64,000 nt of DNA from NCBI GenBank assembly GCA_944326115.1, contig CALVCQ010000005.1, forward strand, positions 1-64,000, given 5' to 3'. Both the position numbers and the translations under genes were made by a program. The notes under the pieces were generated by a model. It saw nothing but the letters and a program-made list of their open reading frames with translations. It was not told where the DNA came from and did no database searches. Positions 3,879 to 56,396 of this stretch are shown piece after piece; the stretch's first letter is position 1; the number at the start of each line of letters is the position of its first letter. This stretch comes from Candidatus Gastranaerophilales bacterium (GTDB lineage: Bacteria > Cyanobacteriota > Vampirovibrionia > Gastranaerophilales > Gastranaerophilaceae).

Positions 3879-3962
3879 GACTGTCCGAGAAAAATTCGTG
3901 ATAAAACTCTGTCGAACAAAACAATCCGGTGAATTGTTTTGTGATAGGGAAATAACATGAAC
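3879..3962. repeat. Dispersed intergenic repeat, block C with CTCTG-hairpin, copy 1
   Basis: This block matches 25948-26030 over about 80 bases (TCCGAGAAAAATT, then GTGATAA, then CTCTG). The core hairpin is ACAAAACAAT (3916-3925) paired with ATTGTTTTGT (3933-3942), ten perfect pairs. It is flanked by CTCTGTCGA on the left and TGATAGG on the right. Confidence 0.75.
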
Positions 3963-3983
3963 GAAGATTGGATATTATTTGTA

Positions 3984-18284: not shown

Positions 18285-18471
18285 GATTTGCTCCTTTTAT
18301 GTTATTTTATATCGACCTTTCGAATTTTGACGGGCTTTGCCGGAGAATCTGAAACAAGTTCAGAACGATATTAAAATCATTTCATAACAAAAAATGATTT
18401 CACGTAAAACCGCAAAATCATCAGACAAACATTTTTGTTTTATTGACACAAGTCTAACCATTGTGTCTTTT

Positions 18472-18610
18472 CTGATCCTCGACAGGCTTGTATTTTAAGA
18501 GAGTCAGCGTATTTGACATATCGACAAGCTATTGTTGTTCTGATAGTGTCCGTTTTGACAAGCACCTGTCATATACAGACTTTACGCTATTCCCCCGCCT
18601 GTTGTCTGCG
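18472..18610 (-). ncRNA. L10 leader, autoregulatory 5' UTR of rplJ-rplL
   Basis: The minus-strand transcript contains CAGACAACAGGCGGGGG (18608-18592) and, about 95 bases later, CTTAAAATACAAGCCTGTCGAGG (18499-18477). These resemble the two conserved halves of the L10-binding leader (AGACAGCAGGYG and CTTAA...CCTGCCGAGG). Known role: excess L10-L12 complex binds and represses its own operon. A hairpin GACACAA...TTGTGTC (18445-18467) follows and could be the switching element. Recognised by eye; a covariance search would settle it. Confidence 0.75.
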
Positions 18611-18620
18611 GTTCGTATAA

Positions 18621-18626
18621 ATTATA
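18621..18626 (-). promoter_or_regulatory. -10 element upstream of the L10 leader
   Basis: Minus-strand TATAAT places transcription start at about 18614, just before the L10 leader motif. An A/T run of thirteen bases lies immediately upstream and may act as an UP-like element; the -35 is not clear. Confidence 0.5.
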
Positions 18627-18751
18627 ATAAAAAAAAAAAAATTTAAAATCAACTATGGATAAAAATCCGGTAACAATTTTTAATATGTATAACGGGTTTT
18701 TAGGGATTTATATAGCATTTTTTATATAAGGACGGACTTTTAATATATTAC

Positions 18752-25947: not shown

Positions 25948-26030
25948 TCGTCCGAGAAAAATTTGTGATAAGATTCTGCCGAACAAAAGAATTCTGTGAA
26001 TTATTTTGTGAGAGGGAATGAAGTGAACAA
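25948..26030. repeat. Dispersed intergenic repeat, block C with CTCTG-hairpin, copy 2
   Basis: Matches 3879-3962. The hairpin arms are ACAAAAGAAT (25983-25992) and ATTATTTTGT (26000-26009) with one mismatch; flanks are TTCTGCCGA and TGAGAGG. Located between convergent genes. Confidence 0.75.
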
Positions 26031-26292
26031 ATTTTTTGACAAAGCGAACATGTTCAACGAAGTAAGCAGTAGTGAGCATTCTGCAAAACTTAACGAAGTT
26101 AAGTGCAGGTGAGTGTCATTTGTTCGCTGTTCGTGAAGACATTTTGCGCTGAATAAAAACCCGTTCACAAAACTCGACATTTAGTCAACTTTTGTTTGTC
26201 ATCAAAGGTGCGCAGGTGCCGCACTGGATTGGAATTGTCAGCAAAAAGAGAATTGCGAAGCGAACTACAGAGATATTGATAAAAAGTAAAAT
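26031..26292. other. Remainder of the repeat-rich gap
   Basis: Non-coding. It contains the hairpin ACTTAAC-gaa-GTTAAGT (26088-26104) and short direct motifs such as GAACAAA and GAAGT. The string GGTGCGCAGGTGCCGC near 26210 resembles GGTGAGCAGGTGCCGC on the minus strand of the GC-rich block near position 180-195, so a shared module is possible. Confidence 0.4.
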
Positions 26293-34106: not shown

Positions 34107-34235
34107 AATAAAGCTTTATGTAACATCGTCCGGGCGATACTTCGCTTGCACCTGAGATATCCTGATAACATGTGCTCGTATTAATTATTATACTGTAATT
34201 AAACAGTTTTGTTCCCCGGAGTCTTATTACGAATT

Positions 34236-34449
34236 TGTCTGAGTGGGACCTCGCTTGTAGGAGTGGTACACGGAGTGCGAGTGGCGCCGAGTCTAGCATT
34301 TTACGACTCTGCCGAAGAAACAATTAAGTATTGTTTCTGAGAGGTAGACCCCATGCGCTTGTTGACTGTGCCGGACTTATTGTTAAATATTGAACTTGCT
34401 TATTGCACAGGTTCAACAAGTAGTCGGAGTCAGTTGACAATATGAAAAT
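34236..34449. repeat. Long intergenic repeat A with internal hairpin module, copy 1
   Basis: Nearly identical to 56160-56338. The left 70 bases (from TTGTCTGAGTGGGACC) and the right ~98 bases (from GACCCCATGCG to GTTGACAATATGAAAAT) are shared. In the middle this copy has 41 bases, including CTCTGCCGAAGAAACAAT...ATTGTTTCTGAGAGG (34307-34344), where copy 2 has 5. The right half folds: TTGACT, CCG and ACTT pair with AAGT, CGG and AGTCA around TTGAAC...GGTTCAA. It lies between the HxlR gene and atpD. Confidence 0.85.
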
Positions 34450-55118: not shown

Positions 55119-55201
55119 ATTTGCTTATTATTTTGTACCGGAAATATTCGCAGTAAAAAGGCTCTCTGTCGGGAATTGACTAAATGTCAATTTAAGATAG
55201 T

Positions 55202-55304
55202 GACTCTGCCGAATAAAAGAAAACTAAATGTTGCTTTTATGAGAGGAGCTAAGTCAGAAACGCAGTTTCTGTGTGCAGCATAATGATTAATATGTGCCGT
55301 ACAT
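55202..55304. repeat. Dispersed intergenic repeat: CTCTG-hairpin plus block B, copy 2
   Basis: Begins GACTCTGCCGAA; hairpin ATAAAAG (55213-55219) with CTTTTAT (55234-55240), then GAGAGG. From 55224 it matches 3764-3846 and includes AGAAAC-gca-GTTTCT (55257-55271). Located between the convergent 172-aa and Bax-inhibitor genes. Confidence 0.75.
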
Positions 55305-56159: not shown

Positions 56160-56338
56160 TTGTCTGAGTGGGACCTCGCTTGTAGGAGTGGTACACGGAG
56201 TGCGAGTGGCGCCGAGTCTAGCATTTTACGGAAGTGACCCCATGCGCTTGTTGACTGTGCCGGACTTATTGTTAAATATTGAACTTGCTTATTGCACAGG
56301 TTCAACAAGTAGTCGGAGTCAGTTGACAATATGAAAAT
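56160..56338. repeat. Long intergenic repeat A, copy 2
   Basis: Nearly identical to 34236-34449 on the same strand, except that the 41-base hairpin module is replaced by GAAGT. Both outer parts match almost base for base. The segment from TTGACT to AGTCA can fold as an interrupted stem around TTGAAC...GGTTCAA. Confidence 0.85.
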
Positions 56339-56358: not shown

Positions 56359-56379
56359 CTCTGCCGAACAAAACAATCC
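56359..56379. repeat. Left half of the CTCTG-hairpin module
   Basis: CTCTGCCGAACAAAACAATCC matches the left arm of the hairpin copies, but no complementary right arm or GAGAGG follows. It lies 20 bases beyond repeat A copy 2, as if the module had been displaced. Confidence 0.6.
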
Positions 56380-56396
56380 TGCGACACCGGATTAGA

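Follow-up and report, generated by a model that had tools for sequence, protein, structure and literature searches.

What maintains and spreads a small hairpin that recurs, with conserved flanks and changing arms, at four loci of a single 64-kb stretch of Candidatus Gastranaerophilales DNA (64,000 nt, hereafter the window)? The preliminary description placed these hairpins at 3907-3949, 25975-26015, 34307-34344 and 55204-55246, with a variable pair N/N' of C/G, C/G, G/C and T/A, respectively; all four were found where claimed and the pairs read exactly so. The left flank CTCTGyCGAA was described as common to all, but site 2 began with TTCTG, and the arms differed yet remained complementary except at site 4, where the inner stem carried mismatches and a one-base slip. 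Two of the four copies (3907 and 55204), rather than the three first reported, lay between convergent genes, 25975 and 34307 having co-directional neighbours; a genome sample of hairpins comprised 15 in co-directional, 3 in convergent and 2 in divergent contexts. A covariance model (R1), built partly from the four window copies themselves, recovered the four sites with E values of 5e-11 to 5e-9, plus one weak extra. The hairpins of the window and their host repeats were distributed as follows.

3883..3966, plus strand: element B, host repeat of copy 1, with closing arms GTCCGAGAAAAATTCGTGATAA ... ATGAACGAA (repeat family D5; an empty site of element B occurs in L080).
3906..3949, plus strand: hairpin copy 1 (A-CTCTGTCGAACAAAACAATCCGGTGAATTGTTTTGTGATAGG-G), N/N' = C/G (pattern, model R1, folding).
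25950..26040, plus strand: element B, host of copy 2, sharing 87% identity with copy 1 across 69 nt (repeat family D5).
25973..26016, plus strand: hairpin copy 2, starting with TTCTG, N/N' = C/G (model R1).
26160..26202, minus strand: degenerate, weak hairpin-like match (model R1, E 0.0026).
34235..34449, plus strand: element A, hairpin-filled (repeat families D1, D3).
34306..34346, plus strand: hairpin copy 3 with junction bases (A-HP-TA), N/N' = G/C, replacing GAAGT of element A.
55203..55247, plus strand: hairpin copy 4, N/N' = T/A (model R1).
56160..56337, plus strand: element A, empty, 178 bp, with the GAAGT pentamer at 56231-56235 as the empty site.
56359..56384, plus strand: left half of a hairpin copy, truncated (repeat family D6).

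Sites 1, 2 and 3 were demonstrably nested in longer repeats, and the flanks of site 4 were those of other multi-hairpin copies. Because the sites sit inside longer repeats, the module is the hairpin of 40-48 nt (HP) and not the whole repeat. At the window hairpins no Rfam family reached its curated threshold, and nothing credible appeared around copy 3. A match to the Rfam L10_leader (ribosomal protein L10 leader) was obtained at window 18380-18629 (minus strand, E 4e-5). A second hairpin family, also with a G.G mismatch, was seen directly left of HP (e.g., ACTCCGTGCGAAAGGTGCCTGTGGCACGTTTCGAATGGAGA; L080, L024, L029 and window about 55171-55202).

Further copies were abundant in the genome, a 2.15-Mb assembly of 92 contigs. 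The exact pattern CTCTGYCGAANAAA-N(8-26)-TTTNTGAKAGG gave 44 matches and its reversed form none, and a covariance model made from 30 variants, the window copies among them, found 105 places at E <= 1, with E below 1e-4 for about 70. A single variant accounted for 23 of the 44 exact copies; it largely rides in element A, since all 13 copies with flanks read do so. Among the genomes of the class, most of them MAGs or unnamed assemblies, 193 of 382 contained the exact pattern, all belonging to the family of the window or to f6 (plus f7 in one survey). The pattern was absent from the other orders sampled, so that the hairpin appeared limited to a few families of one order. Many matches in public genomes were labelled Candidatus Gastranaerophilales, and others came from uncultured-bacterium MAGs. 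IMG/VR yielded no viral carrier of the hairpin (0 matches), and element A was not found in phages.

The family shared one frame, a left-neighbouring A followed by CTCTGYCGAA-N-AAA, a loop, and TTT-N'-TGAGAGG. The pair N/N' was Watson-Crick in 79 of 80 distinct variants (CG 40, TA 17, AT 16, GC 6), against a mean of 28 and a maximum of 44 in shuffles, and the inner stem positions of these 80 variants covaried in the same way. In a 30-sequence alignment, 37 cells were changed on both sides, while shuffles averaged 10.5 and slid registers gave at most 5; as the variants are related by descent, these figures are not probabilities of independent events. Compensatory change in a dispersed structured family, as first proposed, thus stood far above shuffles. 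The predicted pairing of CTCT with AGAG around an asymmetric GCCGA/G internal loop was likewise borne out, being invariant in the 30 aligned variants except at the Y position.

The composition of the stems was unlike that of tRNAs and terminator-like hairpins from the same loci. With the same counting, G-T pairs made up 0.36% of hairpin stem pairs, 9.9% in 118 tRNAs and 6.8% in 237 terminator-like hairpins; the tolerance of G-U pairs that goes with RNA-type selection on covarying stems was therefore not observed. Single interior mismatches flanked by pairs were G.G in 20 of 29 cases, and the pair inside the conserved G.G took all four forms (C-G, T-A, G-C, A-T). Most copies folded stably with DNA as well as with RNA energies, and folding by itself therefore cannot tell the two apart. 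As G-T pairs were nearly absent and the G.G mismatch was kept beside a changing pair, the constraint looks DNA-level, and its action on folded DNA, either a single strand or a cruciform, is the favoured reading of these sequences. Of the two options left by the preliminary description, an RNA or a protein-recognised cruciform, the DNA option was strengthened and the RNA option weakened, both by the scarcity of G-U pairs and by units lying antisense beyond the 3' ends of tRNA genes.

A functional RNA element, such as a leader or trailer hairpin acting in tRNA processing, termination or antitermination and kept by selection on RNA structure, would account for the covariation and for the many copies in tRNA leaders adjoining TTGAAAATTAAATA-type sequence, which we take to resemble boxA. 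It is nevertheless very improbable, as the stems have nearly no G-U pairs, the 3'-end units are found past the gene and on the other strand, copies occur in both orientations at many unrelated sites, and no Rfam family matched at the window hairpins. As a general account, the boxA reading of the AT-rich TTTGAAAATTAAATA motif was abandoned, a similar motif being found antisense at tmRNA 3' ends.

Comparison of filled and empty sites displayed how the hairpin is placed in its hosts. In element A, TTACG-GAAGT-GACCC (empty, window 56231) corresponded to TTACG-A-HP-TA-GACCC (filled, 34306); the target was lost and nothing was duplicated. Element A is non-coding. Without the hairpin it was present in the genome in at least 40 copies, and 37 of these were full-length and 100% identical. 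Inspection of 31 flank pairs showed no obvious target-site duplication of element A itself; its left flank nearly always ended in T. Similar pentamer swaps were found at a second site of element A (GGAGT), in element B (GAGCA), in the CCCTCCCTTGAGG repeat (GGAGG) and in the TTTTTCC[AAAAT] repeat. Insertion thus usually replaced about 5 nt, often GNANY-like, the motif being loose, with exceptions that include GAGCA and AAAAT. The left neighbour of the hairpin was A in 111 of 112 cases, and no constant tetranucleotide occurred on either side. The empty sites come from paralogous repeats, the intact tRNA genes and one genus-level locus; that they are deletions of ancestral hairpins is implausible for the intact tRNAs and possible for elements A and B.

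These sites matched what is seen in SDR-like mobile repeats, with filled and empty versions and precise insertion, while the combination expected of a MITE, terminal inverted repeats plus a target-site duplication made by a cognate transposase, was not found for the hairpin. SDR5 elements of cyanobacteria are reportedly mobile repeats of very small size (Elhai et al. 2008). The hosts of the hairpin differ from theirs in being diverse sequences and tRNA arms in which about 5 nt are replaced. SDR5 is described as inserting precisely within HIP1 (PMC4390886), whereas HIP1 (GCGATCGC) is not the target of the hairpin.

Very small mobile palindromic repeats are already known from REPs (PMC3733652, PMC3116915), and REP/REPIN sequences with their RAYTs (PMC3733652, PMC3116915, PMC2817692) resemble the hairpin as short palindromic intergenic repeats thought to be mobile as DNA. 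A REP/REPIN of the ordinary kind, mobilised by a RAYT (Y1) transposase, would fit the short, dispersed palindromes, their foot sequence and the mismatch inside them, as well as the presence of Y1 genes in 29 of 79 relatives. However, Y1 was missing from several of the most hairpin-rich genomes: the Y1 transposase model (PF01797) had no match in the assemblies, themselves incomplete, of G000, G007, G008, G014 and G017. The hairpin also has no constant 5' GTAG or CGTC tag, is inserted in tRNA arms, and combines variable stems with constant flanks. REP elements are known for the reverse. This explanation is accordingly given next to no weight.

The hairpin, whose foremost hosts appear to be partial copies of tRNA gene ends, is tied to tRNA and tmRNA genes; this tie was overlooked, along with the filled and empty sites of an insertion module, in the first interpretation, which as a whole was only partly supported. 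Many hairpins in relatives sat in partial copies of a tRNA or tmRNA end beside the intact gene. Where both flanks of a tRNA/tmRNA junction were matched, the lost stretch lay in the D-arm (following nucleotide 11 or 12), in the antisense-read T-arm, in the tRNA-Ile anticodon arm or at position 8 of the initiator tRNA; it started with G and was 4-9 nt long, mostly 5-7 (GCAGT(T), GGAAT(C), GGATTC, GGAGTC, GGAGC, GCACC, GTAGC), these junctions being not all independent because tRNA arms resemble each other. In the genome of the window, 10 hairpins lay within 300 bp of the 41 tRNA/tmRNA genes (1.2 expected) and 9 of them pointed at the gene, an orientation shared by nearly all of the 39 tRNA-linked hairpins of a wider set of loci. 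Units at tRNA 3' ends were antisense and beyond the gene. The tmRNA 3' end differed between members of the genus, being filled in G000, G001, G005, G006, G012 (two hairpins) and G019 (three), empty in G002, and remnant-like in G014 and G004.

In a search made irrespective of the hairpin, extra copies of their own end, with HP or other hairpins, accompanied 16 of 29 tRNA genes in the genome of the window, and end copies were found for 4 of 9, 4 of 8 and 2 of 6 in three other hairpin-carrying genomes; these samples are limited to the tRNAs with the best scores in each genome. The first 12 nt of the gene were searched upstream, or its last 12 nt downstream, within 300 bp and with other tRNAs masked. 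None of 40 genes had such copies in the hairpin-free or outgroup genomes G027, G070, G083 and G088 (0/12, 0/10, 0/9 and 0/9), and G059 carried 9 hairpins, yet had end copies at 0 of 9 sampled tRNA genes. The control with reversed ends gave 0 everywhere except for two in G055. Since several arrays sit at contig ends, array counts are lower bounds. Hairpin arrays were often at such ends (L053, L061, L067, L075, L079, L091, L103, L105, L136), where assemblies of Gastranaerophilales seem to break.

Reading of 93 distinct tRNA-side units (ARAGORN) showed 43 with HP and the others with different hairpin modules, and no genes were found in the units read (62-210 bp). Units with one other module, a hairpin followed by roughly GATTAAG, took the place of a longer stretch of the D- or T-arm and had the same architecture as HP units (tRNA-end array units of L206, L215, L203, L202, L216, L229, L205 and L223). 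A third, larger module, GTCTTG..CGTTTAACGGCAATTCC..CAGCCTCAGCTC..GTTCTCAT, was common to the 3' arrays of tRNA-Lys, -Leu and -Met (L033, L136, L250). Antisense tRNA segments lay directly upstream of the intact tRNA at L215, L206 and L225; possibly these could pair with the tRNA in the precursor transcript, as a regulatory side effect.

The arrays could also have arisen without a dedicated enzyme, if replication stalled at hairpin-forming sequence (tRNA arms, repeats) and nascent strands switched template to existing hairpins. Fold-back and re-copying of upstream sequence would follow, and this single error-prone process would produce the tandem end copies, the antisense pieces of tRNA and the replacement of sequence by hairpins. 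Several features of the outermost units agree with it: a short sense and then antisense tRNA copy often came just after the hairpin, as in GCAGTTTGG-T-CCAAAC at tRNA-Pro, with an antisense piece of at least 9 nt in 26 of 73; the flank was tandemly duplicated (score of at least 8) in 31 of 73, over half having no clear duplicated flank; and the arms were perfect, with no G-T pairs. However, the G.G mismatch and the asymmetric GCCGA/G loop were both kept, although fold-back copying would erase them, one flanking frame recurred at unrelated sites, and tRNA-end copies were absent from the samples tested of HP-free relatives. A purely mechanical fold-back is disfavoured because the kept G.G mismatch would be corrected away, and template switching appears unlikely.

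A site-specific recombinase site, integron attC-like or used by a tRNA-targeting integrase, would let small circles with the hairpin enter the tRNA arm by integration and restore the end of the gene. Integron attC sites recombine as a folded strand, with structure conserved over sequence, an unpaired spacer and mispaired bases. The GCCGA/G loop and the G.G mismatch may be the counterparts of these, and the hairpin, too, kept structure more than sequence. The tandem arrays would also fit, their units being external to the gene, oriented towards it and the source of its end copy. In contrast with attC, the hairpin has neither gene cassettes nor an AAC/GTT core, and it is dispersed and nested in tRNA arms. 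The integron integrase model (TIGR02249) exceeded its curated cut-off in 0 of 59 relatives, with only generic tyrosine recombinases below it, the units were gene-free with no recurrent integrase ORF by the hairpins, and the pentamer of element A was replaced without any duplication. We regard such a site as quite improbable, and membership of the hairpin in either the REP/RAYT or the integron attC class is not supported.

The weights given to these readings of the mechanism are a matter of judgement. On balance, HP is probably a very small non-autonomous mobile DNA module, its placement and variation in these genomes suggesting that about 5 nt of the host are replaced, that tRNA and tmRNA genes have their end duplicated, and that the constraint acts on folded DNA. 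Several hairpin modules would be active in Gastranaerophilales genomes, HP among them, and insertion of HP would swap about 5 nt of host sequence, often hairpin-forming, for the module. In tRNA and tmRNA hosts, the D-, anticodon- or T-arm would receive the insertion, and the event would accompany partial duplication of the gene end with its adjoining flank; the intact gene would survive, and hairpin-bearing end copies would pile up outside. Longer repeats (elements A, B and others) carry the copies of the window and would also multiply them. We infer that a dedicated enzyme moves the module, that the folded strand is what it acts on, and in which order insertion and duplication occurred. Tentatively, and as a possibility at best, a recombinase or integrase would act on folded single-stranded hairpin cassettes (HP and others), writing them into tRNA/tmRNA arms and duplicating the gene end, to leave ordered gene-free arrays beside a large share of tRNA genes. 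No recurrent mobile-element, transposase or integrase ORF was found beside the hairpins. A reverse transcriptase as driver was rejected, since none was found in G000 or in most of the HP-rich relatives.

Casposons target tRNA 3' ends, and CRISPR/casposon integration produces a direct-repeat duplication per inserted unit and polar arrays; here, in contrast, hairpin modules recur as the inserted units, and tRNA pieces follow them. We know of no description of tRNA-end arrays as a feature of mitochondrial hairpin elements. These repetitive or double hairpin elements, such as the RHE of sponges (PMC2800124), are like HP small hairpins apparently invading non-coding DNA, but in a different genome type. 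In the openly licensed literature, no description was found of a pentamer-swapping module in tRNA arms or of hairpin-bearing tRNA-end arrays, and we could not match the tRNA-gene hairpin pattern to any described mobile element.

If the proposed mechanism is true, the finding would point to a process acting on folded DNA. It would offer a natural test of whether covariation in hairpin stems can stem from DNA-level recognition instead of RNA function, and would call for caution in covariation-based RNA discovery. Gastranaerophilales would then carry a mobile DNA unit about 40 nt long that, among genes, prefers the tRNA arm as its target, exchanging a pentamer there for a hairpin and duplicating the end of the gene anew; this may also account for the breaks of some of their MAGs at tRNA genes.
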